Assembly (NCBI GenBank): GCA_903813345.2
Contig: CAIIXF020000002.1
Location: forward strand, 30,868,926-30,932,925
DNA from: Owenia fusiformis
Taxonomy: Eukaryota > Annelida > Polychaeta > Sabellida > Oweniidae
Reading direction: 5' to 3'
DNA: 64,000 nucleotides
The notes under the pieces were generated by a model. The model had not been told where the DNA came from. It did not search any database and saw only the letters and a list, made by a program, of their open reading frames with translations. Shown here in pieces: positions 1,739 through 60,515 of the stretch. The position numbers were made by a program, and so were the translations under genes. Each line of letters starts with the position of its first letter. The stretch's first letter is position 1.

Positions 1739-2150
1739 ATGGTGGGAAGGTTTTGTAAAGTATTGATTGGATTGGTGTATCTAAGATTACTCCTAGATGT
1801 GTGTACCGCTCAAGGAGTTTACAGTCGGTGCTATGACACAGAAGGCCGGGCAAAGAGTTGCATGCCTGGATATGAAAACGCTGCTTTCAATGTCCCGGTG
1901 AAAGCAACAAATACGTGTGGAGAAAAAAGTGTTTCAAATGAAAACGGAGAACCAATTGAGTATTGTAAAAAGACGGGTTACACACAGAACACGTGTTCTA
2001 TATGTAATGCTAGTGATGCAGGACTTTCACACCCAGCTACGAATATCAACGATCTAGACAACTATGTCACCAAGACATGGTGGCAATCCGAGACAATGTT
2101 ACAGGGAAATGTACAATATCCCAGCATGGTCAACATCACACTCAATCTAG
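1739..2150 (+). CDS. Exon 1: signal peptide and first half of laminin N-terminal domain
   Basis: The ATG begins a hydrophobic signal peptide ending near a CTA-type cleavage site (residue 24). The rest carries conserved laminin gamma landmarks: NAAFNV, TNTCG, the CSICNA cysteine pair, and TWWQSETML. The donor is CTAG|GTACGT, leaving one base of a glycine codon. Confidence 0.92.
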
Positions 2151-8100: not shown

Positions 8101-11100
8101 CACCAAGAGTGGTATGACATATTGTTATAGTTTCCAACATAAAGTCCATTGACAGTACATATTCGGCGTTCGGTGTATGTAACGAATATGCGTTGGCATT
8201 TTGCATGTTAATGCTTTGATATTCCCTTATATTAGTATACTCTTGAGCACATTCCATTTGTTGCTGTGCCTTTTCCATTTCCACTTGTGCGTTCATGTTT
8301 TGTTACTTCAGAATTCTGATTTTTTATTAATGTGTAACAAACAGTATAATATAACAACAATTATATTTGTCACTGCGATGCATTACATCGATTCATTTTT
8401 ACATTATTGCCGACATTTCTCAAAGATCCATGTAGTCAAATGTTGAAGATATGGTCCTTATATAAGCAACCAATTCATGTTCAACCATATGCAACAATTT
8501 TCAATCGCAGACGGTATTAGACAAGGAAGAACAACGAGTCTCCCTTTATTGGCAATTGACCCCTGAATACGGCTGTCCATATCTCAAAATGTATTACAAC
8601 TAATTTAGTAAAAAACTGACATATAATAACCATATGTTATTCACAGGTAATAAAGGTGCCAATATATTGATTGCTTCACCAATATCTCCAAAACGACATA
8701 AAATGTTGAAACCTTGATTTTTTATATATAAGGTATTTCAAGGAACACATACCGCAAAATTATAGCCAAGAAACTTGATGTATATATTAAAAATATTTTC
8801 ATGTGATTTTCTTTTAATGTTTGTACTTTAAATTATGAAAAAAATACGAAAAACGTTTTACACGTTTTTTGACCCCTGATAATGACATGCATTATTCGGC
8901 CTAAAAGCCCGCCGTATTTATCACGGCTATACAAAAATAAAACGCGGGACACATGTAGGTATCTAAATATAAGCTCAAATATCATTATGCATATATGGTG
9001 CCACCAACTCCTTAATTAGACGTCCTAGAAATTTCATACCGTGGACTATATGACCAGACACTACGATGTAATGTGCGTTTTCAATCGTGATCCAAAATGG
9101 TTTAACACTTTTAAATCACGACCTAAAAAAGCTGCTGTACTATACTCATTGGATTCCAAGTTGTCGATGCCGTTTCTTCTTATTATTTTGCATCTTTTAA
9201 TCTCTATGTAAAAGACCGACAGCCGACCAAGTGGACCCAACTGTGGAAATTAACTGGTCGGTGGTCGGTCTTTTTCGTAAACCCAGATCTTGAAATGATA
9301 AGTCGGAGTTATAATAATTTCATTTCTACGGTCACCATAGAAGTTAAACAAGCCGTAGCCAACCCGTTTAAAGTTTCAACGGTTACACGTCTGGCGTATA
9401 GTCGATTTGAAGACTGCCAAAATATCTGAAAGTAGCATATCTACGGCAGCCGTAGAAATAATAGACCGTACTGTTACAACTGTTACTAAAAACTTTTTAA
9501 TAAACAATGTATCAGAACCTTGGGACAATTGGCTTTATTTATTTGACCTTCACGGGGTAATGTTTGTTTAAGGAATTAGGAATCTCCATTTACCTGAATA
9601 CAAACAAAATCACTGACAAGTGATATATTGAAGGGTTAAGTCAGGGGGTAGAAACGCGTTCAGTATTTTCGCCTGGTACAACTGGAAATACTCCATTTTT
9701 GATCCAGAGAGAGGTAGGTGTGATTTTACTCGGTATCCTGTGATCGTTTTACAGTGTTTCGATCTAGAAACAGGCTCATCAGATTCCCAGTACATTGAGG
9801 AACACACAATCCTGACAGGCATTCATCTAGAATTTTTGTAATGTGGGGTTAAGCACGGAAATACTTTGATTTTTCCCGATTTCCGAAATGCACGAATCGA
9901 GTCAGATTTCTTTTTATTTACCATTTCATTGACAAGATATGTAAATTTCTTGTGTATGGAATAAGAATACAGCTTCCAGTCGGCAAATTTTATCTTTAAA
10001 ATGATTGAAAATAGAAAAATGATTGAAATGAAAAGAAATACCGGACGAAATAAAAATGTACTGGCCGCAAGTCATCCGGTATTAACAGGCTTGCGTCCAG
10101 TACATTTTTTTTATTTCGTCCAATATTTCTTATTTTCTTTTATCGATCACTTTTAAGCTAAACTGTTATATATAATGCTAAATAGGCCATATCTAAATCT
10201 TCATCATTACCAGGTCTCTAGCATTGTAATTGTCTTTTCCCGTTTGTTTTCCCGAGGCCTTCCTCATATTTGGTCCGCTGGCCTTATCCCCATTCTCCTT
10301 AAAGTTTGGCATGCTATGTTGAGAATTATCGAACAAATCAGTTTTTAAAATTAAATAAATTCCCTAAATGACCTTACGATGCCACCGAAAGTCGTAAGAT
10401 AATTATACGATGACCATAACTTTTATCTCCGCGATAAAACTCTGTCGGCGCCCGGGCGACGTCTAAAAATCGGCCGACGGCGCCCGAATGATGCCCAGGC
10501 TTGCCGGCCGATTTTGGACAAAACAGTTATCATATTAACATTATCAATATAAAATATATTAAACTTTTTGATTGAAGGAAAATCATTCGACATAACCGCT
10601 TTGAGAATCAAGTTCAAGTCTAGTCGTCCAGAAAGTTTTGCCATCTACAACCAGGAAACGGAAGATGGTGACTGGATCCCTTATCAATTTTACAGTGCTT
10701 CCTGTGAGGAAACATATGGAAAAAGCAAACATACACACTGGATTATATCTGGCGCGACAGAAGCAATTTGCACCGATAAATATTCTGATATCTCGCCATC
10801 AACAGGGGGCATTGTTATGTTCAGTACTCTGGAAAAACGACCCGGTGCTCGTAAATTCGAGGAAAGTGACGTCTTGCAGGTATGCTGATACAGTTCAGAA
10901 GTCCGAATTATTGAAGTCGCCATTTTAGATTAAAGTAACCTCTGTTTTCCCCAATGTGTATTAGGCTATGGGCAGAACAAGTGCTAGCCCACAGTATTAA
11001 ATGTATATTATTTCTCTTCATAATTCACAATTGTTTTGAAATCTGACAACACGATAATAGATTAATACATACACTCCCCTCCAGAAGTTTGGCAACCCTA

Positions 11101-14100
11101 ACTCTACCATTGGATTACGTGCTAAAGCCTATTTATGTTTGGATTTTAATGTGCATAGTCTGTAAAGAAAAGACTACTTTTAGGGCTTGAAATATCATTT
11201 TTCTAAAAATTACAATAGGTCGGATATTGATGACAAATCTTATGTAGTTTTGAAAATCGACATTCTAGGCGAGTGGGAGCAGGATCAAATATGGAACTTT
11301 AATTAATAATAATATTGATATGTAGATTCCAAATATGACAATGAAAAGTTTTGAAAAATGGCCCGTTACTATGGAAACGGATGCAAAGTGCCACGCCCAC
11401 TTTTCATTAGCCATAAAGTATGATAAACACAATATTGGCCATAACTTTTTTAATTTTTAACTATTTTTAATGATATTGGTACCATATTGAAGGTAATAAA
11501 ATATCCCGTCACCCTATGTATTATTCAGTCGGTTTCAATTGTTCACCCGGCAATTATGACATCATAATATCCATAAATTTCCATTTTTAGGTATATTTAA
11601 CGAATTGCTCCACATCAATGTCAAATAAATACCTTGGTGAATATTCTTATCAAATAAAATGAGATTATTTTTGTTCACGTTAATGTGCTCTTTCCAGTGA
11701 TACGTTTGATGTTACATAACACTAATACACTTTTATTAAGGTTTAATCAAGCAATGGGTAATAGCAATGAACCATTTTTCAATTATTCTTATTGAAAAGT
11801 ATCTGAATGGCTGGTATGCTCTTCTTTGTATTGGCAATAGTTTTAAAAGTGTCTTTATTATATTGTTCACACATAGACTATTGATGCCAAAACAATGGTT
11901 ATGATGTCATAATGGATAAACAAATGACCATATTAACATGATTTATGCTTGAAGTGAAAAATTTATTATTACGCTTCTCGGATACCAGAATCGATTAATA
12001 TAAGACCAAGAAAGTTAGTCAAAATAGGATTCATCGCCTAAAAAGTACATGGTAACCATGGGAACGAGTGTTTATGGTATGCTTACCAACGTGAAGACTT
12101 TAATTTATCAGTATATCTAGATGGTTGACATACTCTTCTTGTATTGGCAATACATATACCTACTTTAAACCATTATTAAGACGTGGGGCCATTAAAACAA
12201 TCTTATCATATAGTTAATATATGGAATATTGATGCCAAAGCAAGGGTTATGACGTCATAATGTATATGTAAATATAAAGCTAATTAATATAATTTATGCA
12301 GGATGTGAAAGAACTTATTATTACGCTTCTCCTGATACCAATAATGCTAAGATTGCTTAAAAACAAAGAAAGTTACAGTCCAAAATGTTTTTATTGCCTA
12401 AATTGCTGAAAAGTTCACGGTAACCATGGCAACAAGTTTTTATGTTATTCTAACCAACATGCAGCCTTCAATATCAGTATATCCGAAAAGCTTACATACT
12501 CTTGCTTGTATTGGCACTGTATTTACTTTATTTTTAAGAAGTGTAACTAATAAAACACTGTTATTTTATTGTAAATATATGGAAAATCGAGGCCAAAAGA
12601 AGGGCTATGACGTCATAATGGATACGCAAATGAGCCAATTAACATAATTTATGCTTGCGGTGAAAGAACTTATTATTACGCTTCTTCTGATACCAATACT
12701 GCTAAGATTGCTTAAAATCAAAGAAAGTTACAGTCCAAAAAGTATTTATTGCCTAAATTGCTGAAAAGTTCACAGTAACCATGGAAACGAGATTTTATGA
12801 TATTCTTTCCAACATGCAACCTTCAATATCAGTATATCCAAAAAGCCGACACACTCTTGCTTGTATTGGCACTGTATTTACTTATTTTCATTCATTTTTA
12901 AGAAGTGTAACTAATAAAACACTGTTACTTTGTTGTAACTATATGGAAAATTGAGGCCAAAAGAAGGGTTATGACGTCATAATGGATATGCAAATGAGCG
13001 AATTAACATAATTTATGCTTGAGGTGAAAGAACTCATTATTACGCTTCAGCAGATACCAATAATGTAAAGATTTGTTAAAAATCGAGAAAGTTACAGTTT
13101 AAAATGTATTTACCACCAAGTAAGAAATTTAAAAAATGGGCGTGGCTTTTGCGTCCCGTTTCCATAGTGATCGGCCATTTTTCAATTTTTATTATTGTCA
13201 TTTTTGAAATCTACATATTCATATTATGATAGTCAGGTATGATTCATGCGGTTGCAAGCTATCTTAATTAAGGTCAACAAATAAGGCCTTTTTGCTGGAT
13301 CTCCCACTCGCCTATTCCCATGTTTAACCAATGGGAACTGATAGGTTTGTCGCAAGTCATATGGCAAAATATCCAGCTATCCAAGTTAGGGAAAAATTTG
13401 AATTTCCTAACTCTGTTTAACAAAAAAGCATAATTTCTTCACGTTCAACAAAGTTATAGGTCTCCAAAGTCAAAATTATTTTTCAAAAAACTTCTCCCAT
13501 TGAAATTAGACAAGAGGCGTAAAAATGATTTGAAGCTCTTTAACTTTAATGTTCATAAAGTAAACTTAACACTTAGCGTGCAAAAAGTTAAGACAATTCG
13601 ATTAATTTTCTATATTAATTTATTTGGTGAAACATTTACTGAATAGATATCCAGAAATCTGATTGGGGGTGAACCTCATTATTCTGAAAAGGTATAAATT
13701 GATTTGACAACGGTAACTTATATATCATAACGGATATAAAACAATAGCTTAATTCCATTAGCGTACATAGTCATACGAATTAGTTTCTACCTTGGCTATT
13801 ATTTTCAATTATTTAATGAATCTGTAATCATCCTGCTTTAACTTTATTATATAGAAGTGGGTGACTGCTAGAGGTATCAGATTGGTCCTCAGCCGAATCA
13901 ACACATGGGGAGATGAAGTATTTGGAGAACCACAGGTTTTGAAGTCCTATTTCTATGCCATTTCTGACATTTCTGTTGGTGGACGGTGCGTTTTGCTATT
14001 TACTTTAAATAATCATATGTTGACGTACTATGCTCTATAATGTGGTATATACTTTGGAAACATCACCACATTGGGTGTCAATTGGATGCCATTGTAAATA

Positions 14101-17100
14101 ACTATATGTACAAACACTTGAAATAAAAATAAAATATGAAAATGAAATAACATACAATAAAAAATTTAACTTACACTTACACGTTCGAGAAATAGAAGGA
14201 AACGGTCCTTTGGATCGTCTTATTAATACGTTAATAGTACATAAAGGTATATTTATCCTAATACACGTAACGTACAATACCTTTCAGTTGTAAATGTAAT
14301 GGGCATGCCGGTAAGTGTGTTAATAGTACAGAGCAGGGCCTTGAGGGGCAACTAGTTTGTAGTTGTGAACACAACACAACGGGGCCAGACTGTGGAGAGT
14401 GTCTCCCCTTCTACAACAACAAGCCATGGAAGAGAGCAACTGACACAGATGGCAACGCGTGTGAAGGTAAATGCCAAAGCATTGACTTATGTAGGTACAT
14501 TGAAACCTGCTTATCCAAACACCTCCCTGATCTCAATATGAGCACCTTTTCGGTTCAAGGTTTTCATATTAAGAAAACCTTGAAACGTGAACACCTACTT
14601 TTGCATGTCCAAGAGGCTTTCTGAATAGACAAGTTTAACTTTTACTGTATGTTCAAATACTTAGTATTTTTCATTGTAGATAGTAATTCAAAGACTACAT
14701 CTAGTAGTGTTTGCAATTGACAAGACATTCTGTGCACATCCTCAAGTACTGTACTAATAGCCATAATCCAATAATGCAAAAGTGAATACCGATCTGTGAA
14801 TTTACCTCTGAGCAATGTAAGTCGTTATCAATCTTGATAAAATATTTTCTCTCCGCTGATAGCATGTAACTGTAATGGCAAATCCGACCGTTGCTATTTT
14901 GATCAAAGTCTCTTTGAGGCCAGTGGTGAAGGTGGCCATTGCTTGAACTGCAGAGAGAACACAACTGGACCACATTGTGAGAATTGCAAGGAGAACTACT
15001 ATTTAAGTCAAGAAGGGCGCTGTGAAAACTGTGCTTGTAATTCAACAGGTAAGGTTTGCATTAATATAATACGTATACTATTACATCACAAAAGCATTGG
15101 TGCTGATCATATACTGTGTAAACAGACGTTGTGGCAGCACTTTGAACCCCCTTTACTAAGATAACATGTGTTACGCGGAATATGGCATATATTCATGGTT
15201 GCGCGGTATTTGTGACACGAGTGAATATGCCATACTCACCTGCATTGTATGGCATATTCGGCAGCACTTTGAACTCCCTTTACTAAGATGACGTGTGTTA
15301 CGCGGAATATGGCATATATTCATGGTTGCGCGGTATTTGTGATACGAGTGAATATGCCATAGTCACCTACATTAAATGGCATATTCGGCAAGTGAGTATG
15401 GTATATTCTGCAGTGAATATGCGATACATTGATTTCAGTGAATACCCGATACTAAGTTGCGGAATATGCCATACTCACTTGCGGAATATATGCCATATAC
15501 CGCAGGTGAGTATGATAAGTACCGCAAATGAAAACGTGATACAGAAAGCCATAATTTGATTGGTTATGAGAATTGACTCTAAATGTAAAACTACGCAGGA
15601 TTACCATTAAATTTAGTGCTTCGAGTACTAATATATGAATCCTTGATTTATTGAGTACGTTTATGACGTGAGATTGCTGAGTGGTACTTCTGCATTAGTT
15701 GATATATTCAACGCACTGAACTGTTGATTCAGCAATCATTATAATAATTCATAAACTTTTACCCGTTAAATCTAGTTCATTCAATCGATGCAATTGCGTA
15801 CTTCCGTATCACGTTCTCATTGGTTAGTGAGTATGCCATATACCGCAAGTGAATCTGTCATACACCGCAAGTGATAATGCCATATTCGTTGCGGAATATG
15901 ACATATATTTGTATCGTGTCTACAGTATAACAACGTGTTTCTAGGTTCAGAAAATCTACAGTGTGACAGAACAGGGCAGTGTCGCTGTAAACCTGGGGTA
16001 GAAGGCAAAAAATGTGACCGTTGCTCGGCGAATTACTATGGATTTAGCAGTACCGGCTGCAAGTAAATGATGACATTTTTAATATTTTACTTGGCCAATT
16101 CCAGCATCAAGCAAATGTTTCCCTTACAATGCTAACAAAAACAATTCCTATCACGTCTACACCCTCTAAAGCTAAACGTTTTGTCAACATAGCTTAATGT
16201 ATATAATATTTTAGGGTGTTCCACTTTTCAACTTTTTTCGGATCAATATGGAGTTTTACCCAGTTGGTCCTCTGGTAAAGGAAACCATGCAAGCACAAGC
16301 AATTTCAGCCAAATCCGAATTCTTATCGCGAATAGGAGTATTATGGTATCATTTCACTGATTCGTGCCTTAAAATTCAAAACGCCTGCCGAGAGCAGGAG
16401 TTCGCTATTGTTTAGAGATCTCTTCAAAGTATTGTTACATTATACTAAATATTGTATTGTCTTTACGATTTGTGCCTTTGAAACTCCTAAACTCTAAACG
16501 AATGCATGTCTTTTAATATATCTTCCAATTCCGATTTTTTGTCAATTCAAAGACATTTCAACTCAGAGTTCAAATAATGATTCGGGATTAATTAGGGTAG
16601 CGAGAGGCCGAATACATCAATTTGTGATTTGATTAACGGAGTAATGTTGACATTTAAGAAAGTGCATGTAATTATCATTAAATTGTCCAATTACCTTCAA
16701 TATTTACCTTTGTTTCAGGGAATGTGCTTGCTTGCGCAATGGCAGTCTCGACGTCGAGAAGCCCTGTCATCCTGATTTTGGAACCTGTCATTGCGACGAA
16801 TTTGCTAACGGTAAATAATACAGAATGATGCATTTGATAACCCTGTCTGGTTGCTTGAAATATTACCTTGTATTTACTTTGTAAATCATCAAAATATATT
16901 AATATAATCATTTCCTTTAATGTATGTTTGCATCTTTATTTCCAACATGCCATAAGAGTGCGTTGACGCTTGTAAGGCCTATGTATAATTGTATTTTAAA
17001 AGAACGTAAGAAAATATTCTCAGATAAGTTTATTATATGCGTTTGATTGAAGCAATGCAGAATCTTTATATTATGAATAAGATAAGTCACATACATTGCT

Positions 17101-20100: not shown

Positions 20101-23100
20101 CTGATTTCATTGAATTTCCATTGCTCAATGAGCACTCATACCATAAGTAACTAATTTATTGCACATGTATCATGAGTGATGAAATTAAAATGTTGATAGA
20201 CTTTTTAAATTGATGAAGTAAAATACATTTAATAAATTACATTATAATTACATGAAAATATGGATAAATATATCATTGAACATTTCAAAAAATTATCAGC
20301 CCTGTAGCTATTTCATGGAACAGTATGAAGCTAAGAAACAAAATGATAGACACCATATTGATCTATTCTTGAAAAAGTGAACATAAATATACACTGCTTC
20401 ATTACTAGGAGTAAGTTAAACATTAAGATGTGTATATTATAAACTATAAAACTTGGTGGTAAATAAGTCAAGTGAATATGTGTAACAGTTCATAAAAATA
20501 AAAATAAAATGAAAAAAAACATGTGACTGGATCCCAGCAAGAATGTCACTGGTCCACTGGCCCACTGTCATGAGCACTCATGCCACAAATTATAATTTAG
20601 CACTAATATTGTACTAATTGAGTAATCAGCATACCTTGTTGAAATGAATGTGAATTAATCATGAATATTCAACGGAAATTCTTGAAATATTAATTAATTG
20701 TATATTCATGAAATATTCATCACTTATGTATTCATTATATTGCATTCCTTAAAATTCTTGAAATCTTCTCCAAGTTTGGCCTCATATTTCTTGAAGTATT
20801 CATCAACTGTTTATTCGTGAAATATTCATTACTTGTATATTAATGAAATATTCATGATATTTTATTCCTCAATATTCTTGAAATCTTCTCCAGGTGAAGC
20901 CTTATATTAACATGCTCCATCTTGTATGAGTACTTGTATCTACAACTATTTTTGAGGTTATGGGTATTGGCTATCAATTTCTAATTTTTTCTTCAACAAG
21001 TATTGTAATAATTTCAGTATGAATGAAATGTCCCTTGGTCTTCTGGTCTTGGATTGTGATATTTGTTCTTGAATGGTGGGGGAAAGGGGGTATTAGACAT
21101 TGTTTCTTTTCACGTTAGATCATGGTTTTGGGCTATATGGGGTTTGTTTTCCTTGACTGGTATGTACTAAGAGTTTGCTTTTTCTTGCTAAGTTCCATTA
21201 CAACTTTTAGTCCTTTCCCCTTTGGCACAAGTGCTTATATATTCATGAAATATTCATTATATTCTATTCCTCAATATTCTTGAAACCTTTTCAAGGCGAA
21301 GCCACATATTTCTTCATTAACTGTTTATCCTTTTGAATCATTATTTGTCTTGGAATGCTCATCAATTGTACAGGGCGTATAAAAAACCGCAACAAGTATT
21401 TATCTCGTAAAATCACACAAGAACACAAATGTGTACAAAATGTCCCCACCTATGGGTGATCCCATCAAATGGTTATCCTAAAAATGAGTAGACAAGACTT
21501 TAACGACACAATTTGAGGATGGAAAATCCAATATGGCCACCTTAAAATTTACCCAGAATGCCCAAAAATTAGTCAGTTCTAGATTTTCATACTAAGAAGC
21601 ACCCCTGAAAATTTGAAATTGATCCGTCACACAGTTAACCAGAAAACATGTAAACAAGACTTTACAGACAAGATTTGAGGACCGAAAATCCAAAATGGCT
21701 GCCTTGACATTTATCCAGAATGCCAAAAAACTAATGTGTTCTAGATTTTCATACTAAGAATCATCCCTGAAAATTTGAAATTGATCTACCAAACGGTTCA
21801 CCTGGAAATGCGTAGACAAAACTTTACAAACAAGATTTTAGGACAGAAAATCCAAAATGGCTGCCTTGACATTTACCCAGAATGCCCAAAAACTAATCAG
21901 ATCTAGATTTTCATACTAAGAATCATCCCTGAAAATTTGAAATTGATCTATCTAACGGTTCACCTAAAAACGCGTAGACAAGACTTTACGGGCAAGATTT
22001 TAAGACGGAAAATCCAAAATGGCTGCCTTGACATTTATCCTGAATGCATAAAAACTAATGAGATCTAGATTTTCATACTAAGAATCATCCCTGAAAATTT
22101 GAAATTGATCTACCAAACAGTTCACCTGGAAATGTGTAGACAATACTTTACAGACAAGATTTTAGGACAGAAAATCCAAAATGGCTGCCTTGACATTTAC
22201 CCAGAATGCCCAAAAACTAATCAGATCTAGATTTTCATACTAAGAATCATCCCTGAAAACTTGAAATTGATCTACCAAACGGTTCACCTAAAAACGCGTA
22301 GACAAGACTTTACGGGCAAGATTTTAAGACGGAAAATCCAAAATGGCTGCCTTGACATTTATCCAGAATGCATAAAAACTAATGAGATCTAGATTTTCAT
22401 ACTGAGAATCATCTCTGAAAATTTCAAATTGATCTACCAAACGGTTCACCTGGAAATGCGTAGACAAGACTTTACAGACAAGATTTGAGGACTGAAAATC
22501 CAAAATGGCTGCCTTGACATTTACCCAGAATGCCCAAAAACTAATCAGATCTAGATTTTCATACTGAGAATCATCCCTGAAAATTTGGAATTGATCTACC
22601 AAACGGTTCACCTGAAAATGCGTAGACAAGACTTTACTGACAAGATTTTAGGATGGAAAATCCAAAATGGCTGCCTTGACATTTACCCAGAATGCCCAAA
22701 AACTAATCAGATCTAGATTTTCATACTAAGAATCATCCCTGAAAATTTGAAATTGATCCACCAAATGGTTCACCTGAAAACGTGTAGACAAGACTGTACA
22801 CACGAGATTTTAGGACCGAAAAATCCAAAATGGCCGACAATAAAAAAGTGATTATGAGTTTTTGCTAATTTCTTTCAACAAAATTATCACATATAACTAC
22901 TGTTAACAATAACATAGGCTTTTACAACAAATTATAAAGCTACTAAATAGTTTAAGTATGAAAACTGAATAACACCATTCAATATGATACAAAGTATTAT
23001 CGTGCGCTAACTTTTCTTAAAACATTCAAAATGGCTGACATGACTGAGCTTACAGGTCCAAAACCTAATCAGATCTAGAATGAAGTGAGCTGAACAAGAT

Positions 23101-26100
23101 GTTAAAGTTTTAAAAGCAACTGTGAAGCCGTTTTTCTTAAAGTTTGCAGACAAGGATTTTAGCATTTGACTTCAAAATGGCTGACAGGAAGTTGGTATCG
23201 AGTTAATTTTTTTTCATCCACATCTGTATGCACTCATAAGTTATCCCTGAAAATTTGAAGGTGATATCTGTAGCGGTTTTGGAGAAAACTCCCGGACGTA
23301 CGGACAGACGGACAGAAAGACGGACAGACAGACGGACGGACGCGCCTAGGCCGACAATATGGCCCCACACTATGTGGTGGGGACATAAAAACTAGTGATG
23401 ACTACATAAATTTCATCCAATGTACCATAAAGCCACGTCTCTCCTCTTCGCAATCATCCAAATGTGGTAATAGTTGGGTGAGAAATCCTTCCATTTGCAC
23501 AGTGGGTCAAAATCGGCTCTGCGCCAAGTTTTAGATATTGCAAAAATCAGTGCAAGGGCTAAGTGCCAATGTAAGTTCCCCTGACTTGAATTGTTGTGAC
23601 TTTTTCTTTTGGACCTATCTCAGGAGCATCTGTACTCACAATTCCTCCACCAAATATTGCAAAACCTCGAGAAAGAATTGCCTATGGGCTGATTTTCTCT
23701 GCTTTAATCCACATATGACTCAGGGCTGAACGATGCATGACATGGACAGATGTGCAAGGGAGTGGTGGCAATTTGGAGGGGTTATATAGGATGTATTCTT
23801 TCAAGAGTATGAGTATGAACACTATACTGTCTATGTCACACCTGTCACACCTTCTTCCTATAGCCCATATGCGCCTTGTACTGATTTTTGCAATGTTTAA
23901 AACTTGGGTCTGAGCTGAATTTTGCCCCACTTTGCAAAATTAATGATTATTCGGCCAGCCATGACTCCATGTGAATGAATGATATTCCATTGCAAAGAGC
24001 AGTAGTTTGGCTTTTTGGTACATTGAATGAAAAGGATGCAGTCAGCATTGGTTTTATGTTTTCTTCCAACATCGCATCGGGCTCTGTACACTAACTTTTG
24101 TGATGTTTATAACTTGGCCCCAAACTAATTTTGGCCCACTTTGCAAATGGAATGATTTCTCACTCAAACATGACCATATATCCATGAATGATATATCATT
24201 GTAAAGAGGAGACACGTGGCTTTATGGTACATTGAATGAAATCAATGCTGTTATCACTGGTTTTGTGCTTTTTCGAGATAAAAATCTGTTGCCTTTTTTT
24301 GATACGCACTGTATATTCATAAATTATTCATGATATAATATTATCAATCGTTCATCCATTAAACATTCACAATATTATTCATCAATTATTAATGAAAGAA
24401 GAATTAATATACATGATCTATTCATGAATATTACTGAAATACAAATTGGACTCATTATAATTCTTGAAGTGTGAATAAAAGTTGAATACCACTAGTCATC
24501 CTATCCATTCAGTTGATATCATAAACTAGGTCAACTTTTGTCTAGTCAGATAAAATTAAAATGGCTCGTGTCCAAATCTTCAGATCTTGAAACATCTCCT
24601 CTCTAGGTGGAAATACTGTAGCTATCTAATTATTGTTCTAAACAAAAAGACATGTGTTACCTACCTTTTGGCATATGTTCCTGTTTCTCTCTTTTCCTTT
24701 TTAACAAGAGCTTCAATCTAATTTTTTACTTATATGTTTTTCCCGCCTAAAATAATAATTTCCTGACTCATTTATGAGGATTTGCAAGAATGTAAAGACT
24801 TCTTCATAATTCTTCATTTATTCATCGGTAAATATTCATGAAAATTTTATTCATCACAATTCTTCAACTTTTCAAGAATAAAAATATATGGGATTATTCA
24901 TGATGCATGAATATTCAAGAATTATTCAGGAATATGTCATGAATATTATTTCAACAAGGTATCCCCTGTGTATTTTTAACTAAATCTGGCAACATTAACG
25001 CCGATGAACATTTCATTTTTCATAACACATTTTAGAAAGAAATATGGAAAAAATATTTACAAAATCACCAAATTTTGGAGGAAAAATAATCAACAATAGA
25101 ACATAAGTTTCAGTATTTATTTGAGAATATGCCTCTATAAATATATTAACAAATTGAGTCTCAACGATTAAGTATTTATGAATTTGGGTTGGGCTGTATT
25201 TCACGATTACTTTTATTTTGTATTGTATTGTATTATATTAAAAATGTACCCTAAAAACAACTATAATCCACTCCAGGGGTAGCACTTGTCCGGTAAATGT
25301 TTCATGTTTGTTTTTTAAAATCACACAGAAAGACTTCCAATGTACAGTGACAATTTGTATCCACGGCACATCTTGGTCACCAATCCTGAATGAAGGCTGT
25401 AAATGGTGTTTGAAAGTGGCAATTTTAAAAACGCACATGAGATTGTTCTTCGTATAGCACATTCTGCATTGGGTGTTTTTGTTGTACAAAAACTGTCAAC
25501 TCTACTTCTCTCTTTTTCACAAGTTACGTGCGATATGTTATGGATTATGGTTACGAATTTGGTTGCAAATGAACGTTGACCCTTTGAATTGCCTATGGAC
25601 TTTTAGCATTGGTACTTTTCTTTACAGTTTTTGGTCCCCTCCCTTTGGCACTTGTGCTAAGATATTCATCATCAAAAGAGCCCTACACTAATATGATACC
25701 TATCATACATATTAAAGTTTCCTTCTTTTCGTTATGGAAGTAGGAATACAATCAACATGTCATCAATGAACAAATGTGCCAGCTGAGGGTTTTAATAGCG
25801 TTTTGGTGCAGTTGTTGAAGGCATGTAAGATTTAGATGGTGTTTTACGAAGAAAGCATTTACTAACTCCATTATATACATACCATTACCAAACATCGATC
25901 AGAACCAGTGAGACAAATGTTGCAATGGTTTAGAAAGGGTAGCATTTCCTTATTGTTTTGTGATAACATCGTTTTGATTTTTTTGTTCAGTTTCATTTAT
26001 TTTGAACCTATGTATTTGCATTTCTTTTGAAGGAACTGGTTCAAACGATTGTAGGAAAAACAATGAATTGAAGAAGTTGCAAGCATTCAATTCAGCTATT

Positions 26101-29100
26101 CAGGCTATATCTGAACAAGTGAGTATTCATTGGTTGTGAACATTTGTTTAGCACGATTGTTAATCATAGAAGAGAGGTTTAGTTACAGGCTTAAATGTAA
26201 ACTGTGAATCTGAACACACGAGTACCATGGCTACTAGGCTTGCATGGTGTTGGGCAAAAAGTGAAGTTTTTTGCGACAAAAATGGTTGCCATTTTGAAAG
26301 TTGGCTAATTTCTGAATCAGGAGCCATTTGGAGGATTTTCTGTATTCATGTTGAACAAAAATAATTTAAACCAGGGAAACCTATCGAGAGGTTTTAAAAC
26401 TACAAAGTTACTAAATGTTCAAAAAGTGAATTTTGCGAGACAAAAAAGGTGGCCATTTTGAATCAAGATTCATATTAGATGAAGGTCTGTATTGATGTTG
26501 AACACAAATATCCTATTGACAGGTTTTAAAACTATATAGCTACTAAATGATCAAACAGTGAATTTTGCGAGACAAAAATGGCGGCCATTTTGAAAGTAGG
26601 CAAGCTGTTGAATCAAGAGTCATATCGCACCATTAGTATAATAAGGTTCTCAGTGGCTCAAACCATGTTTTGAGAAAAACAGGATTGAAGTTTGGGACTT
26701 TGATAACATTTTTCTATTTATTGTAGGTCAAGATTTTAGGAATTGGTTAATGACATAAAATCCTGTCTTTTGGTGATTTTTTTGTTAGAATTGACACTGT
26801 ACATCTGTTTTTTCAGCAAAAATCAAAATGCAAATAGAACCTTTTACTGACAAAAGCTAATCAAGTTCTTAATTGGTTGCATATAGAACTTATTTTGCCA
26901 TTCATTCCATTGAGGGAAAAGTATTTTGATGTCATTTTGATTTCATGTTGTCTAATTCATAACAAAAATTATAAAAAAAGAAAAATATATATTTCTAAAA
27001 AATATAAAAAGAACTAGTAAATCCAGACATGTCATCATAAAATAAGCATCAATATCAAAATATTGCACAATTACACTGTATCATCAAACAAAACTCTGCA
27101 ATTGCAGTATTGAAACTTACCATGCATATATATGCAAATTAATATATTTCACTGCCATCAGAAAAATAGCACTATCTTAATACATATCACGTTCAGGTTT
27201 AATGTACAGGGTGGTCAAAACAGGACCGGAGAAAAGTTTAATAACTAGGTCAAGCCTGCATATTTTGTCTTGAAGTTGAAAACCAAATAAATGAACTACA
27301 TGATTCTGAAATGTCAAGGAAAATATACGAAATTGACAAAGTAATTCAACTCTTCTTTGGTCCGGTTTTTGACCACCCTGTATTTATAAATCCTAAACTG
27401 CTGACAAATATAAAAATATACTTTAAAATGAAATTATCCTTATCGTATACAAGGATATCCTCCATACACCAATTAACTTTATGGCCTTAACCAATAGATC
27501 AGCAGTAATGTCTCATGAAACACTTATAAGGTAGTGTAATAAAATACCCTTGTAAAATACCCTTGTAAAAAAAACAAAGAGCATGGATATTATCTTTATC
27601 ACCATATATATAACGTTTGCTTGTCCATGCTTTTACTTCCTTGTGTTCCTTATGGTGTTTCTTTTAACGTTCACATTTTGATTTCATACACTATGTGGTT
27701 CATAACTTTGACACACACTTTCCATGTATATAATATACTATTATGGGCATTATCTTCACTACCACTTCATGGTTAACATTAATGTTTTACTTAATTTTCC
27801 TTATGTTTCATATGCTGTTTCTTTTGCTTTCTGAATTGTTTTTTACTGTATATTTACTATAAAAATACTCTTATGGACATTATCTTCACTATCACACTGT
27901 CGCTTATGTTTGCTTGTCCATGAATTTTACTTTCTAATGTTTCTTATGCTGTTTCCTCTTACTTTCTAGTTTTAATTCTAGTTTTTTTGTTAACATTCAT
28001 AGGGAATAAATCATATCATTTCATGAAAAACGGTGACCTTGTCCTACGGAAATTGAGATTATATTTCACAGCAAGTTTGCACAGCAATACTGTATAGCAC
28101 ATGCTCTATGAAATTGATTCTACTTTCCATAGACACCAAACAGATCTTTGTCGATATAATAAAGAAAAAGCCTTAGGGTCCCAACCTCCTTTGTTTACAC
28201 TTACAAAAACGTGAAAAATGACATAAGTAAAAGTTGTTCTAAATTTTTTTAATTTAAAACTCGTGAAAACGATTTCACTTGCCAGCGACATATACTTTAG
28301 TCTTTACCGAACATGTCAATTTGGTTCGTAATATCGCTGTAATATCTCCAAATAAACAATTTCAACATTTTAAAAAACTCAATGCTTGTCCACGTGTTAA
28401 TTATTATTGGTTTCCTGTCACATGACCAAATGTTAAGTTCTGATTGGTCAAGACCTGAAGTTAATTAGAACCTTATAATACCAGCTATAACTGTCATTGT
28501 CTATAGAATTTTTTCATTTAAATTTGATTGGATAAGAGTTAGAACCTTCTTATACATAGGTTATTGCAAATTAAATTGACTTACACCCTTTTGATATTGA
28601 GAAAAGCATATTTAGAGCAAAGATGGAAGTTTGTCATTGATTTCATTGGAAAGAACATGCCCAAATTAGTCAATATGCAAAGTTACAGCATTTTTCTCAA
28701 AATGTCACTTAGAACCTTATTATACTTATGGTGCGATATGTTTCTCCTCTTTTAATTTCTCATTTATTTATTATTTATATGGGGTCGTGGTTGGCTGAAA
28801 AATAATTCCTTTTGCTCAGCGAGTCAAAATCAGTTTTAAGTTTGATTAAGACATTGCAGAAGGGAAGGGGTACGCGATGTAATCTTGCATGATTATGAGT
28901 ATGGACACTACTGTTCTGTCATACCTGCCACACCTTCTTCAAATTGGACTTGGGCATGTGTATTGTTTTTTTGCAGTGTCTAAAACTTGGCTCCTCGCCA
29001 ATTTTGCCCATTGCGCAAGAGGAATGATCAGCCAACCAAGAGACCGTGTAAATAAATGACATATTTAAGAGGTGAAATATGGCTTCATGATTTATTCAAT

Positions 29101-31061
29101 AAAATCAAAGCAGTCATTGCTATTTTTTATTTATTTCTTGCGTTTATACACCCTGTATGAATATTAAATCATGTTATTCAAAAATAGAAAAGTTGCCTTT
29201 TTGTGCCATCTTGTAGTACAGTTGGTTCAATGATAAATCTTGATATCATTGCTCACAGTGTTCTGTTAACCATGTATTATTGGTAGGCAGTCATTTTACT
29301 TCCTATTCATTTCAGTGTCGCCTCATTCAGAGCATCGGTGGGGAGGTAGGAGGAATGGCAGTTTTGGGGTCCAAATTTGTATCATTTGGCACGAACAATG
29401 GGGATATAAGTATTAAACCCCTAAAAGATGCATTTACACTTAATTTAGGTATGTATTTAAAGGGATATTCCTCACCAGCTCATGTCTTACTTGATATGGA
29501 AGTTTTTACTTTTTAAGATTTCACCCAGGAACTGATGTCCAAAACTCTTCAGTTTGCAATACATAGATTTAGTAAAAGAAGAAGGTATTAAGAACACACA
29601 AAACCAGCTTAATATCATTTTTCAATAAATGATGAAATCTTACTAGAAATGAACACAATAATACGCATTAAAGGAACTATATGCTTTTATATTTTAATGC
29701 CGATGTACAAACTACATGTATGTTTTAATGTTGCTCAAGACTCCATTGCTACTTATAATGACAAATGTCACATTGACCTACATTATATTTCAATTCGGAA
29801 AATTTAAGCTTTACATCTGATAAGAGAAAAGGTCAGCTGTCATATTTGGGGGGGGGGAGATTATCTTATACTTCGAGTTTGTCAACATGTTACAGTAGGA
29901 CTGAAAGAATTAAAAAGAAATAATTTGAGATTTACTCTCTCCTCCTTTGCTGCCAGTGTGAATAGGGATTCTGCTACGGCCATTTTGAAATGACCAATTC
30001 AAGACGACTCCGAGTGGGTTTCTAAATATCATTTTCAAAACTGTTTTAAAAGCACTGTTTTAAAAGCTGAAAAAAATAATTCCAGTTTCTAACATTTACT
30101 GTTGTTTTTTCAGCCACACTAAGTGATTCAACAGCATCCAAAATCAAACGGAACTCAGAGAGTGACAGAAAAAAACTTGTTCGCAAAGTTCGAAAGGCCT
30201 TAAATAGCATTGTAAAAGGAGGTACGTTCAGTGTCTGAATATAAACTTCAGATTCATACTTTAGAAATGTCGAAAAAGTGCACATACCTGTATTTGCTTT
30301 ATAATCAGGGGTGGTCATCGAAAGATTTGTCCAGCATGCTATTTTTCATGAAAGTCCAATAACGCTAAGAAAACATGAAATACAAAACTGCTCCCCAAGC
30401 TGACAAAGAACTTAAACATTATTTTTCATAGAAAACATTAAAAAGACCAAATACATCTAGATCTTATTAATACCTTCAGAGTTATGGTGAAAACATGTGT
30501 TAATATTATCATGTCAATTTATCGTGCCATTTCCAATAGGGCCTAGCTTTTACACCTAGCGTTATTGGACTTTAGAGAAGTGAAGGTTATCCGCAAAAAA
30601 TATACTCATTGCATGATAATAATAGTAATTTATTTTCTTTGGTGTAGCGAAACATAGAATAATTTGTGAAGTTTTCTTGTAGTTTTAAGAAAAACAGCAT
30701 TCTCCCCCAAGCTGGACAAATATTTTGATGACACTCCATGATAATTAGAAAATATGATAAACTCTCATTTTTTTTGCAGGCAAATTTCCATTTAAAGCTG
30801 TCAGGAAGGGATCGTTTAAAGTTTTGAATTGGCCAGTTGATATAGTTCAAGGTCGGAACCTAAATAAGCTTAATATGCCTGCTCTCAGAATAATACTCCA
30901 AGCAGTTCCTAGAATGAAATTGCAGAGGTAACTTTCAATTTGCTTCTAATTGAAGAAAACCCATATAAAAAACCTTCGTATTTAAATTTTAGTAGTTTGG
31001 TAAAAATGTCAGTTGTAAGATTTGACTGCAACATTGATTCTTTTGTAGGATGGCACCTTAG
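1739..31061 (+). CDS. Netrin-sized secreted protein: laminin gamma-type N-terminus plus unrecognised basic C-terminus (12 exons)
   Basis: Reconstructed by splicing 1739-2150, 10578-10879, 13855-13985, 14288-14466, 14863-15048, 15951-16062, 16719-16810, 26033-26118, 29316-29448, 30114-30221, 30780-30927 and 31049-31061. Every junction is GT-AG and phases agree throughout, giving about 633 residues. Residues 1-24 are a signal peptide. The laminin N-terminal domain spans about 25-281; its [12 protein letters not shown] and TWWQSETML stretches are closest to laminin gamma chains. Three laminin EGF-like modules follow (about 283-441), then a fourth keeping only six cysteines (443-478). Residues 479-633 are basic, contain one cysteine, and match no family I know. 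Netrins are about 600 residues with this layout, but end in a cysteine-rich NTR module absent here. There is no laminin coiled coil, so trimer assembly is unlikely. Likely extracellular matrix or guidance-type protein (inference). Exons 1-7 are certain as a family; joining to 8-12 rests on phase, order and a poly(A) signal. Confidence 0.85.
2151..3580. other. Start of intron 1; no exon seen apart from the hairpin
   Basis: AT-rich intron sequence with a short inverted repeat around 3445-3480. Short open frames near 2820-3090 on both strands have no recognisable protein character. Confidence 0.4.
2734..2824 (+). ncRNA. Imperfect pre-miRNA-like hairpin in intron 1
   Basis: Arms of about 42 bases (2734-2775 and 2780-2824) pair with scattered mismatches, one small bulge and a loop of about five bases. 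I count roughly 35 matched positions by eye. Length, small loop and irregular mismatches resemble a microRNA precursor, but a decayed inverted-repeat element would look similar. Intronic, same strand as the host gene. Confidence 0.3.
4455..4770 (+). repeat. Diverged direct repeat of about 210 bp, two copies
   Basis: The segment around 4457-4560, with AACCAGAAATCAACTTTCGTG, recurs in altered form around 4668-4770. Only the shared words and their order support it. Confidence 0.45.
5642..6837. mobile_element. Foldback element with long terminal and internal inverted repeats
   Basis: The left end (5642-5710) and right end (about 6768-6837) are near-perfect reverse complements over about 65 bases, sharing GTTACACAGACGTATCGTCA and GAACTACTTCCGGGA. 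A second palindrome (about 6405-6725) lies inside, centred near 6565, with AGTCCCTCGCTTT in both arms. There is no transposase gene, so it is non-autonomous. Confidence 0.8.
5745..6095 (+). repeat. Tandem array of about 60-65 bp units inside the foldback element
   Basis: About six diverged copies of a unit containing TCACATTTAGTGCAATA followed by TTTATTGTAATA. Spacing drifts slightly between copies. It fills the space between the left arm and the internal palindrome. Confidence 0.7.
6952..7361. mobile_element. Palindromic foldback element, about 410 bp
   Basis: The left half (from GCGGTCCTAACTTCGACCG at about 6955) and the right half (ending CGGTCGAAGTTAGTACCGC) are reverse complements with indels. 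The centre is a tight hairpin around 7120-7185 with GGTCCCCAGCTGT and ACAGCTGGGGACC arms. A relative of the right half occurs at 36060-36260. Confidence 0.75.
7961..8296 (-). CDS. Possible small hypothetical protein (111 residues) in intron 1
   Basis: An open frame antisense to the host gene. The N-terminal part is rich in Gln/Glu/Met ([14 protein letters not shown]); the C-terminal part is rich in Ser, Thr and Pro. I recognise no domain and see no splice or poly(A) support. It may be a chance frame or a remnant of a mobile-element protein. Confidence 0.15.
   Translation of the reverse strand: MNAQVEMEKAQQQMECAQEYTNIREYQSINMQNANAYSLHTPNAEYVLSMDFMLETITICHTTLGGDIRNTSNPKVKRLSTPPDPRAKYKHHSQTITPSSTSLYSSHYNTN
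9205..9285. repeat. Short hairpin
   Basis: AAAAGACCGACAGCCGACCA and its near-complement TGGTCGGTGGTCGGTCTTTTT lie about 25 bases apart. Probably a small palindromic element end. Confidence 0.5.
10030..10135. mobile_element. Small palindromic (MITE-like) hairpin in intron 1
   Basis: AGAAATACCGGACGAAATAA... on the left pairs with ...TTATTTCGTCCAATATTTCTT on the right. Both arms also share ATGTACTGG and its complement CCAGTACAT. Arms are about 40 bases around a 20-base centre. It lies about 440 bases before exon 2. Confidence 0.6.
10578..10879 (+). CDS. Exon 2: second half of laminin N-terminal domain
   Basis: It continues exon 1 in phase (glycine codon completed) with [12 protein letters not shown], then [37 protein letters not shown] and [10 protein letters not shown]. 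All are diagnostic of laminin N-terminal domains, especially gamma chains. The donor CAG|GTATGC leaves phase 0. Introns 1 and 2 around it are rich in inverted-repeat elements. Confidence 0.93.
11262..13322. mobile_element. Terminal-inverted-repeat element filling intron 2
   Basis: The left flank carries AGGCGAGTGGGAG (11269 on), ATGTAGATTCC, then CTATGGAAACGG and GCCACGCCCA. The right flank carries the complements in mirrored order, ending CTCCCACTCGCCT at about 13313. Arms of roughly 150 bases surround a tandem array. No transposase is present. Confidence 0.75.
11760..13130 (+). repeat. Tandem array, four copies of about 360 bp, each with a CRE-like palindrome
   Basis: GTAACCATGG marks successive units at about 12051, 12420 and 12776; unit starts are about 369 and 356 bases apart, and a more diverged first copy begins near 11760. 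Each unit contains a TGACGTCA-type octamer (11902 as TGATGTCA, then 12250, 12608, 12972) followed by CATAATG and, later, TTATTATTACGCTTC. Confidence 0.8.
13855..13985 (+). CDS. Exon 3: end of laminin N-terminal domain
   Basis: It encodes [21 protein letters not shown], then a segment ending [12 protein letters not shown], the usual end of a laminin N-terminal domain before the first EGF-like module. The acceptor AG is at 13853-13854; the donor is CG|GTGCGT with two bases carried over. Confidence 0.92.
14288..14466 (+). CDS. Exon 4: laminin EGF-like module 1
   Basis: It begins by completing an arginine codon, then [26 protein letters not shown] and [12 protein letters not shown]. This has the eight-cysteine spacing of a laminin EGF-like module, with the PW(K/R)RAT motif typical of the first module of laminins and netrins. 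The acceptor is CTTTCAG; the donor is GTAAAT. Confidence 0.93.
14863..15048 (+). CDS. Exon 5: laminin EGF-like module 2 and start of module 3
   Basis: It encodes [32 protein letters not shown] and [10 protein letters not shown]. The module 2 pattern, including the CYFD and GGHC motifs, matches laminin gamma and netrin. The donor GTAAGG leaves one base. Confidence 0.93.
15134..15387 (+). repeat. 127-bp tandem duplication in intron 5
   Basis: GCAGCACTTTGAAC starts both copies (15134 and 15261). The second copy repeats the first with few changes, including TTACGCGGAATATGGCATAT. Confidence 0.85.
15172..15910. repeat. Cluster of AATATGCCATA / GGAATATGGCATA words in both orientations
   Basis: Beyond the duplication, intron 5 carries many short copies of GGAATATG(G/C)CATA and its complement, alternating with CACTTGCGG or CCGCAAGTGA, from 15172 to 15500 and again 15825-15910. 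This creates many small palindromes next to exon 6. Confidence 0.7.
15951..16062 (+). CDS. Exon 6: laminin EGF-like module 3
   Basis: It encodes [22 protein letters not shown] and [10 protein letters not shown], completing a canonical third module. The acceptor GGTTCAG and donor AA|GTAAAT keep the frame with exons 5 and 7. Confidence 0.93.
16719..16810 (+). CDS. Exon 7: first part of laminin EGF-like module 4
   Basis: It encodes [16 protein letters not shown], then [11 protein letters not shown]. This gives the first five cysteines of a fourth module. The donor G|GTAAAT opens an intron of about 9.2 kb that contains a separate gene and a nest of mobile elements. Confidence 0.88.
17601..18251 (+). 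CDS. Claudin/PMP22-like four-pass membrane protein
   Basis: A single-exon frame of 216 residues. Four hydrophobic segments are visible at about 13-33, 86-110, 121-145 and 163-188. The first extracellular loop carries the family signature: Trp36, then G-I-F at 56-58 (usually G-L-W), Cys61 and Cys71. The ten-residue cysteine spacing matches claudins. Claudin/PMP22/EMP proteins act in cell junctions or as plasma-membrane adaptors. The cytoplasmic tail is short (about 25 residues) and does not end in an obvious PDZ-binding motif. The gene sits in intron 7 of the netrin-like gene on the same strand. A poly(A) signal follows almost at once. A 5' non-coding exon is possible, because TAG and AG sites lie just upstream of the ATG. 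It could instead be assigned to another branch of the same superfamily. Confidence 0.85.
   Translation: MGRGCYTPLGGMEGGIIATFSTALQFVIRCIFMNDWATIKSTNPTNGSVVQEQRMGIFYMCNQIGEGARVCQSTVNMDFPHAYKAAGAMAIVSCVFLGVSFIAFIIGYGALYKNPGILNGKFFAFLAVAVWISTFCNILSYTIFGTYIETAFYHVRPSDSSSLFLGGFYQMVGSSVCSLTVAILLSCVPGVMARMRGQGNIWSNGKTNHAVELEAK
18270..18275 (+). terminator. Poly(A) signal of the claudin-like gene
   Basis: AATAAA lies 19 bases after the stop codon, within an AAT microsatellite (18261-18275). Confidence 0.6.
18280..19880. other. Intron 7 of the netrin-like gene, downstream of the claudin-like gene; no gene seen
   Basis: AT-rich, without open frames of protein character or strong repeats. Short direct words (TCACATGATCA) repeat near 19725-19755. 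Confidence 0.4.
19885..20190 (+). repeat. Diverged tandem repeat of about 111 bp
   Basis: GCATGTTTTAGTACTAAATTA recurs at about 19941 and 20052. Each copy is followed by CTCAATGAGCACTCAT, with a third partial copy ending near 20185. Confidence 0.65.
21462..22835 (+). repeat. Tandem array with a near-constant 162-bp period, about 8.5 copies
   Basis: The GGCTGCC or GGCC word after AAAATCCAAAAT falls at 21535, 21697, 21859, 22021, 22183, 22345, 22507, 22669 and 22832; every step is 162 or 163 bases. Units also share GATCTAGATTTTCATACT and ATCATCCCTGAAAA. The minus strand reads open through about two units (22324-22629) because 162 is a multiple of three, but stops elsewhere argue against a real protein. 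Confidence 0.9.
23294..23345 (+). repeat. GGAC/AGAC microsatellite
   Basis: Runs of ACGGACAGACGG and AGACGGACAG next to the right end of the inner nested element. Confidence 0.8.
24963..26032. other. Intron 7 tail before exon 8; no gene seen
   Basis: AT-rich. It includes one copy of a dispersed motif, CCCTTTGGCACTTGTGC (about 25640), that recurs in other places in the window. Confidence 0.4.
26033..26118 (+). CDS. Exon 8: sixth cysteine of truncated module 4, then charged helix-like segment
   Basis: It completes the glycine codon left by exon 7 and supplies GTGSNDC, a plausible loop-closing sixth cysteine. [19 protein letters not shown] follows. The seventh and eighth cysteines of a normal module are missing. 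The donor CAA|GTGAGT gives phase 0. Assignment to this gene rests on phase and order. Confidence 0.65.
26225..26625 (+). repeat. Three diverged copies of a unit ending GACAAAAATGG(C/T)GGCCATTTTGAA
   Basis: GTGAATTTTGCGAGACAAAAA-type words followed by GCCATTTTGAA occur at about 26265, 26425 and 26560, separated by AGGTTTTAAAACTA and GATGTTGAACA. They resemble the AAAATGGC repeats at 21.5 kb and 51 kb in style, not in detail. Confidence 0.65.
27205..27382. mobile_element. 178-bp MITE with TACAGGGTGGTCAAAA ends
   Basis: The left end TACAGGGTGGTCAAAACAGG is complementary to the right end TTTTTGACCACCCTGTA, and the next bases (ACCGGA / TCCGGT) continue the match. There is no coding capacity. Flanking TA suggests a Tc1/mariner-mobilised element. 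Confidence 0.85.
27390..29315. other. Rest of intron 8; one MITE relative, otherwise no gene seen
   Basis: The 28785-29157 part resembles the middle nested element (right end TTATACACCCTGTA). A family of words ATGGACATTATCTTCACTA repeats around 27740-27900. No exon candidates were found. Confidence 0.4.
29316..29448 (+). CDS. Exon 9: unrecognised C-terminal domain, part 1
   Basis: The acceptor ATTTCAG is strong and the donor is G|GTATGT. It encodes [18 protein letters not shown] and [14 protein letters not shown], with 44 open codons in the phase left by exon 8. I recognise no family. It contains the only cysteine of the C-terminal region. Confidence 0.65.
30114..30221 (+). CDS. Exon 10: very basic segment of the C-terminal domain
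   Basis: The acceptor follows a T-rich tract ending TTTTTTCAG; the donor is G|GTACGT. The encoded peptide includes SKIKRN and [19 protein letters not shown], a strongly basic, amphipathic stretch that could bind polyanions such as heparan sulfate (inference). Confidence 0.65.
30780..30927 (+). CDS. Exon 11: C-terminal domain, part 3
   Basis: The acceptor TTTTTTTTGCAG is excellent and the donor is AG|GTAACT. It encodes [19 protein letters not shown], then a segment with [18 protein letters not shown]. The phase fits exons 10 and 12. Confidence 0.65.
31049..31061 (+). CDS. Exon 12: last three codons and stop
   Basis: The acceptor CTTTTGTAG is followed by one base completing an arginine codon, then Met-Ala-Pro and TAG. 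It is very short, but no other frame is compatible with the phase, and a poly(A) signal follows about 195 bases downstream. Confidence 0.55.
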
Positions 31062-37934: not shown

Positions 37935-38837
37935 TTAACAATTAGATAACCTATTAAATTGAGATTCTTCCCATTTGACGATTTGATCCTTCACATCCTC
38001 ATAATTATCAAGAGTGTCTTCCAAAGCTGCTTTCCTTTGTCTTTTGAAAGAAGTCAAGTTTAAAAATGGTTTATCAGATGATGGATATCCTAAAAATGTA
38101 AATATTGCATTCGGAAGTTCAGTTGTCTTTTGAAGGATATCATCATATGTGACATACATTACATAGGGATATGATTTTAACTCATTCAATATTATCTTCC
38201 AGTGTTCATTTTGGGACGTTGCATAATTTTCAAAGTTTTCAATATCTAAATTAAATGGAGATCTTTCAGTTTTTCCTTTCATTTGAGAAGTCCATTGTTG
38301 TGTTCTGGTGGCCTTTACTAGGCTGATGTATTGATCCAAAAGATTACATCTCTGGAGCACAATAACAGCAGGATTTTCAAGTAAGGTCATCAATTTCTTC
38401 AATTCAAGTTTACTCGCCTTTAACTGACTTATGAATACTTTAAATCCAGTCAGAATGCCAGGGATATTAGCATCAGGTTTAATACAACGTAAAATGTACT
38501 CTGATTTATTCCTGATATCATCAAGCTGGAATTTACTCAGTTGGACTTGAGATAGAAGTTCATCGTATGATGTTAAATGTGAATGTTTGTTAATTAAATC
38601 CTGTAAATACGTGGAGCCACTTCTTGCTTCTGATAAAATCAAGAAGTGTTTAAATTGGCGTTTATCTGTGTGGTTACCAATGTCAAGATTCTTGTCTGAT
38701 AAAATATTCTCCAATGTGCCATTTTTACTTAATCGATCTGCTATTTTCCCATGCTTAATATACATTTGGTATGTCTTTGAGATAATGATGTAGATGAAGA
38801 AACTGATCACCACAAGCGGTGTTTTCCATGGTCTCAT
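37935..38837 (-). CDS. Golgi-type sulfotransferase-like protein, 300 residues, single coding exon
   Basis: A type II membrane layout: a short basic N-terminus, one hydrophobic anchor (about 7-22), then a stem with two N-glycosylation sites (Asn39, Asn55). Residues 69-78 (SEARSGSTYL) form the 5'-phosphosulfate-binding loop of sulfotransferases. A 3'-phosphate-binding-type strand and helix follow near 158-174 (VIVLQRCNLLDQYIS). A late NYEDV motif recalls Stf0/NodH-like sulfotransferases. Such enzymes move sulfate from PAPS to sugars or similar acceptors in the Golgi lumen; the acceptor cannot be predicted. The frame is intact. Just upstream of the ATG the minus strand reads TTGTTGTCAG, a plausible acceptor for a 5'-UTR intron. 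A processed retrocopy is possible but nothing looks broken. Confidence 0.85.
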   Translation of the reverse strand: MRPWKTPLVVISFFIYIIISKTYQMYIKHGKIADRLSKNGTLENILSDKNLDIGNHTDKRQFKHFLILSEARSGSTYLQDLINKHSHLTSYDELLSQVQLSKFQLDDIRNKSEYILRCIKPDANIPGILTGFKVFISQLKASKLELKKLMTLLENPAVIVLQRCNLLDQYISLVKATRTQQWTSQMKGKTERSPFNLDIENFENYATSQNEHWKIILNELKSYPYVMYVTYDDILQKTTELPNAIFTFLGYPSSDKPFLNLTSFKRQRKAALEDTLDNYEDVKDQIVKWEESQFNRLSNC

Positions 38838-39490
38838 TATTATCTGACAACAAAGAGTTAATGAATATACTGGACTGTATTGTCATTTCATCTAGTCACT
38901 ATCAATAGTTAAGGTAATCTGTTATGACTCCATTTAAAATCCCTTTCAGCTAAGTAAGGACATTTACGACATGTTCAAGCAAATGATTTGTGAGCCAAAT
39001 ACCCTTGGCACATTATTTCATTCTTAACTTATTATACCTCCTGGCAGTTTTTGAGTAATTCTGCATGTTGAATTTTATCAAGCCATAGACTTATAAAAAT
39101 AAGCGCAATCACTTTCTGGCTATCTTAATGTTATCTTAATGAAATGACTTTGTTTTATTACCAAACAAAAAATTCAAAAACACAAGAATGATCAAGATGA
39201 TTAGTGGCTTTATTAATGACGGCAGTTTCAATATTTTGAATGCTGTTTGTGAATTTATAGCCAAGTAAATATCAGACAATAATAACGCTAGCTTTGATGG
39301 AGAATATCATTCATCCTCCCCGCAGCCGTAAAAATATACAGGAATGATCGGTAGTATCGCATTACTTGGAGATCAAAGAATATCAAATTTTAACTCTGGC
39401 TTTTAATCCTCCTTGTGGAATACATCATCATTTAATATGATTACAAGCCCCATGTATATCAACAAGATTTAACTAGACATTTCATATATT
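38838..39490. other. Upstream side of the sulfotransferase gene; no gene seen
   Basis: Likely 5' UTR or promoter DNA for the minus-strand gene. AT-rich, with no clear elements. Confidence 0.3.
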
Positions 39491-60511: not shown

Positions 60512-60515
60512 TTAA

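Follow-up and report, generated by a model that had tools for sequence, protein, structure and literature searches.

Gene content of the locus

The window, a stretch of 64,000 nucleotides of Owenia fusiformis DNA located on C2, contains twelve plus strand exons that the original prediction had read as one phase-compatible gene of about 633 residues. Their joined frame encodes 635 residues and the GT-AG ends lie where they had been placed. Exons 1 to 7, hereafter the head, code for a signal-like peptide followed by a laminin N-terminal (LN) domain and by three complete laminin EGF (LE) modules plus half of a fourth; Pfam matches (Laminin_N, 7.4e-74; EGF_laminin, 2.6e-22, four stretches) agree with the predicted LN domain and three and a half EGF-like modules. 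Exons 8 to 12, hereafter the tail, follow downstream, and a single-exon gene lies in between. Among the twelve exons only the junction of exons 7 and 8 is doubtful, and a phase match such as that found there is a one in three event. All features are listed in Table 1.

Table 1. Exons, genes and other elements of the window, with two exons from loci related to the tail
Feature	Position	Strand	Observations
Head exon 1	1739..2150	+	Signal-like peptide (by eye) and LN start; 69% identity to exon 1 of the C6 laminin gamma gene
Head exon 2	10578..10879	+	LN; Laminin_N 1.2e-27; 71% to C6 gamma
Head exon 3	13855..13985	+	LN end; Laminin_N 1.4e-7; 77% to C6 gamma
Head exon 4	14288..14466	+	LE1; 68% to C6 gamma
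Head exon 5	14863..15048	+	LE2 and start of LE3; 78% to C6 gamma
Head exon 6	15945..16062	+	Remainder of LE3; 65% to C6 gamma
Head exon 7, read as terminal	16719..16818	+	First half of LE4, then TAA; AATAAA at 17493; start of C6 exon 7 is 53% identical over 32 aa
Single-exon gene, 216 aa	17601..18251	+	ATG and TAA in frame; AATAAA at 18270
Tail exon 8	26033..26118	+	Acceptor phase and donor position fit an exon of the C4 relative (by eye); residues little conserved
Tail exon 9	29316..29448	+	67% to a C3 exon, 57% to a C4 exon
Tail exon 10	30114..30221	+	Over 24 aa, 42% to a C3 exon and 50% to a C4 exon
Tail exon 11	30780..30927	+	Open frame, acceptor, possible donor
Proposed tail exon 12 (RMAP-stop)	31049..31061	+	Sequence only; optional
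Homeodomain-like exon upstream of the C3 tail relative	L001:5908-6118		Interrupted by stops
Homeodomain-like exon upstream of the C4 tail relative	L002:7206-7397		Open
Repeat of about 162 bases, head to tail	21745-22716		Open frame in most copies; a related sequence lies close to the tail relative on C4
Single-exon open frame	37935-38882	-	Pfam Sulfotransfer_1, 1.3e-7
Transposase fragments	44702-45327	-	Tc1/mariner-type (by eye)
Ty3/gypsy-type element	59236-63346	+	Gag-, reverse transcriptase- and integrase-like frames (by eye)

The head is derived from laminin gamma

Exon by exon, the head is 53-78% identical to a laminin gamma gene on C6, and the positions of the six head introns match in both genes (by eye). 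Exon 1 of the C6 gene also finishes at a GT donor following ...LNLG; the two genes differ in start codon, since the open frame of C6 begins further upstream than the matching start. Over 355 aligned positions identity amounts to 73% with C6 gamma and 57% with mouse gamma1, and the head and C6 gamma have an insertion in common that is absent from mouse. Identity to the netrin LN exon of the same genome, found on C9, is 41% in the six-sequence alignment; this exon is followed, 35 kb further along on the same strand, by one of the genome's three NTR matches. Searched against PDB, the LN-LE part of the head scores 449 bits with mouse laminin gamma1, 375 with netrin-1, 221 with laminin beta1, 208 with alpha5 and 203 with netrin-4. 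A phylogeny of the LN domain had been suggested as a check, and in the unrooted tree of six sequences the head and C6 gamma are set apart from the rest with a support of 1.000. On the PDB scores, the identities to C6 and C9 and the tree grouping, the reading of the head as a netrin was rejected. The original prediction of a netrin-sized protein that derives from laminin gamma and is not a netrin is thereby upheld, also with respect to the lack of an NTR domain.

The head frame ends in ...CDEFANGK* after 475 residues, with its TAA at 16816-16818, within eight bases of the donor proposed at 16810. The C6 exon with the start of LE4 reads on, uninterrupted by an intron, across the rest of this module into laminin B-like sequence; further downstream the same gene has a match to a laminin B domain (C6:38934514-38934819, E 1.1e-18). 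Genome searches with the head and with laminin B scored best candidates only, by which weak exons may be missed. Within that scope 52 head matches were listed, seven of them on C2 and all seven inside the window, and none of the nine laminin B matches (E <= 0.001) is on C2. Hence a full laminin gamma gene on C2 that would begin with exons 1 to 7 was rejected, as neither laminin B nor a further head match is listed for C2 outside the window. The head product has neither a laminin B nor an NTR domain, and there is no room for a coiled coil in its 475 residues. Its half LE4 carries five cysteines, which makes an awkward protein end and counts against the 475-residue reading. Judged by these comparisons, the head is an old truncated paralogue of the C6 laminin gamma gene.

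Constraint on the head

Over 464 codon pairs the head and C6 gamma differ with a dN of 0.196 and a dS of 2.26 (saturated), a ratio of 0.087 that partly reflects the constrained C6 branch and the saturated dS; dS was infinite in three of the eight segments, one of which is a misplaced alignment of 15 codons (27% identity) that was retained in the total. There is no stop and no lost splice site across seven exons, and the head retains each of the 26 cysteines present in the 379-residue stretch of C6 that was compared. When the head was made to evolve neutrally in simulations, none of 500 replicates was free of stops at any of 0.1, 0.2, 0.5 and 1.0 substitutions per site. This makes the head look, from its sequence, like a working gene under long constraint.

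The head could instead be a decaying leftover of a second full laminin gamma gene that recently lost its 3' part and yields no useful protein. With mouse gamma1 as reference, 49 changes are unique to the window copy and nine to C6 gamma (chi-square 27.6), and this faster change, together with the broken EGF module and the loss of Y147 discussed below, fits decay. The faster change indicates changed or relaxed constraint and as such speaks both for and against function. Against decay stand the seven intact exons, the complete set of cysteines, the failure of neutral simulations to keep the frame open even at 0.1 substitutions per site, and the fact that C2 outside the window shows no laminin B match or further listed head-like match. 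We consider decay quite improbable.

The intervening gene and the tail

The product of the 216-residue gene contains several hydrophobic stretches, by eye those of a claudin-like multi-pass membrane protein, and has no Pfam match at E <= 10. A genome search gave five matches at E <= 1, itself included, among which relatives at C11:25874768 (62%) and C1:61689478 (58%) are open over nearly the full length.

The tail has 161 residues and is basic (30 K+R versus 10 D+E), with two cysteines. The small exon 12 is not required, since the frame of exon 11 also reaches a TAA at its donor. A profile search, one of the checks proposed earlier, returned neither NTR nor any other Pfam family at E <= 10, in accordance with the predicted lack of NTR features; no PDB chain was matched at E <= 10 either, and none of the three genome NTR matches (E <= 0.001) is on C2. 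An NTR identity of the tail is thus unsupported by profile search. Two other resemblances were also rejected: at E <= 10 PF02946 (GTF2I repeat) is matched nowhere on C2, C3 or C4, and none of the 53 PF00505 (HMG box) matches at E <= 1 falls at the tail loci of C2, C3 and C4. As an HMG box, a C4 exon failed in Pfam as well.

Exons 9 and 10 have relatives on C3 and C4 and have kept their frame open while silent sites in these comparisons are saturated or nearly so (pS 0.68-0.85). Exon 11 has no relative among the matches listed for the genome and for the C3 and C4 loci. A further match of the C4 protein, on C5, is short (24 residues) and weaker. Some 2.2 kb upstream of the exon 9 relative on C4 lies an exon that resembles a homeodomain (Pfam Homeodomain, E 0.0023, 18.1 bits, under the cut-off of 22.9); two frames of the C3 counterpart were examined and gave no Pfam match. 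When the C4 exon was searched in the window the best hit (E 0.17) was on the minus strand, far from the tail. A nuclear role for the tail gene is likely, given the homeodomain-like exon, below cut-off as it is, upstream of the C4 relative.

One gene or two

We think it probable that the twelve exons represent two neighbouring genes, the truncated laminin gamma head (1739-16818) and a separate tail gene of exons 8 to 11 or 12, the tail being, as part of the same explanation, a short and divergent member of an unnamed family. A single protein with a netrin layout and an unknown basic tail, as originally predicted, is unsupported because a complete gene on the same strand, with two intact paralogues, intervenes, and because relatives of the tail are found on C3 and C4, two places for which the genome search, with best candidates scored, listed no match for the head. 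The below-cut-off homeodomain-like exon on C4 also favours a separate tail, and the head's own TAA speaks against that prediction too.

The single gene would be a chimera, in which the truncated gamma head captured four tail exons by exon joining and which would encode a secreted protein ending in a basic domain from a homeodomain-type gene family. Several observations are in its favour: head and tail exons share a strand, exons 7 and 8 are compatible in phase, and the donor at 16810 is usable (ACG followed by GTAAAT, a donor sequence also present in exons 4 and 6). The cysteine of exon 8 could be the sixth of LE4 and so close the half-made EGF module, and exon 8 lacks much of the content of its C4 counterpart. 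The persistent open frame of exons 9 and 10 fits as well, as does the failure to recognise a first exon for a tail gene among plus strand open stretches of at least 45 aa from 18.3 to 26.0 kb. On the other hand, the supposed intron would harbour a complete same-strand gene and two AATAAA signals (17493 and 18270), and the head frame stops by itself just past the donor. Neither the C6 gamma gene, which runs on into laminin B-like sequence, nor the C3 and C4 loci, at which the genome search lists no head match, have such a join. We therefore regard the chimera as unlikely, and its wider form, a secreted fusion of a gamma head with a damaged node contact to the basic domain of the homeodomain-type family, as distinctly unlikely. 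If true, this fusion would add another way in which a netrin-format protein can arise, and a domain formerly of nuclear type would have come to lie in the extracellular matrix.

Node residues and a possible mode of action

For the two-gene explanation the question is what a free gamma-type LN would do. According to PMC9852560, the trimer is broken by the gamma1 mutations Y147R, S213R and D261R, and calcium is held by D108 and T116 (106 and 114 in the numbering of PMC3409155). According to our alignment C6 gamma retains all five residues. In the head, S213, D261 and the two calcium residues are unchanged and Y147 is replaced by alanine, an exchange whose effect cannot be read from the cited tyrosine to arginine mutant. 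Another residue near the calcium site, N108 in the numbering of PMC3409155, is D in the head.

The node geometry, as given in PMC11260871, has the gamma1 toe contact the beta1 heel and the alpha1 toe contact the gamma1 heel. In competition for the gamma1 LN netrin-4 prevails over beta1, and it fails to support binding of alpha; for LaNt alpha31 competition or integration at nodes has been proposed (PMC9788559 and PMC11260871). The head product is probably a secreted monomer of 475 residues with LN, LE1-3 and half of LE4. It would be unable to enter a laminin trimer and might reach the matrix as a free gamma-type LN, there to take the gamma place beside beta or alpha LN domains. With alanine at Y147 and the other node residues retained, such a free LN would have one altered contact, by which it may cap or weaken polymer nodes in the way of netrin-4, an imperfect beta LN. 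Alternatively it may compete, as proposed for LaNt proteins. By analogy with these proteins, the head could tune the basement membrane.

Comparison with known systems

According to PMC9788559, netrins are considered to have emerged at least twice from ancestors of laminin type; LaNt proteins are laminin-derived netrin-format proteins that originate by alternative processing of a laminin gene. Consequently, of the undescribed family of soluble proteins that had been proposed for this locus, the derivation from gamma and the probable secretion stand, but the word undescribed is too strong. Among the listings and opening lines of abstracts covered by our literature search, nothing was found on a gene-encoded truncated laminin gamma. 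As far as the literature searched shows, a separate, constrained gene for a gamma-type protein of netrin format is a new form among these laminin-derived proteins.

With laminin gamma chains the head shares LN, LE1-3, calcium ligands and cysteines, and with C6 gamma also the intron positions; it differs from them and from mouse gamma1 in that it stops in LE4 and has no laminin B domain or anything beyond. Netrins likewise have LN followed by LE1-3 and are of about the same size, and in netrin-4, too, the LN lacks one of the node contacts (PMC9788559). Unlike netrins, the head continues after LE3 with half of a fourth LE where these have NTR, and its LN is nearer to that of laminin gamma.

The closest likeness is with LaNt alpha31, which, according to PMC9788559, has a laminin-derived LN, a few LE repeats and a short end in a netrin-like format, lacks a coiled coil and is predicted to act on LN-LN nodes, as we propose for the head. 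The same source describes an alpha-type LN, identical to that of the parent chain, that results from intron retention and polyadenylation in LAMA3. The head, in contrast, has a gamma-type LN that is 27% different from the C6 gamma chain and is a gene of its own: it lies on C2, separate from the gamma gene with its laminin B match on C6, which does not correspond to LaNt-style alternative processing. LaNt proteins and netrin-4 show that basement membranes can be tuned by free LN domains. If a free gamma-type LN with one node contact replaced has a gene to itself, this would show that evolution fixed such a regulator as a gene as well as by splicing, and for a further class of chain, and the head offers a natural variant for asking whether gamma LN monomers cap laminin polymers.
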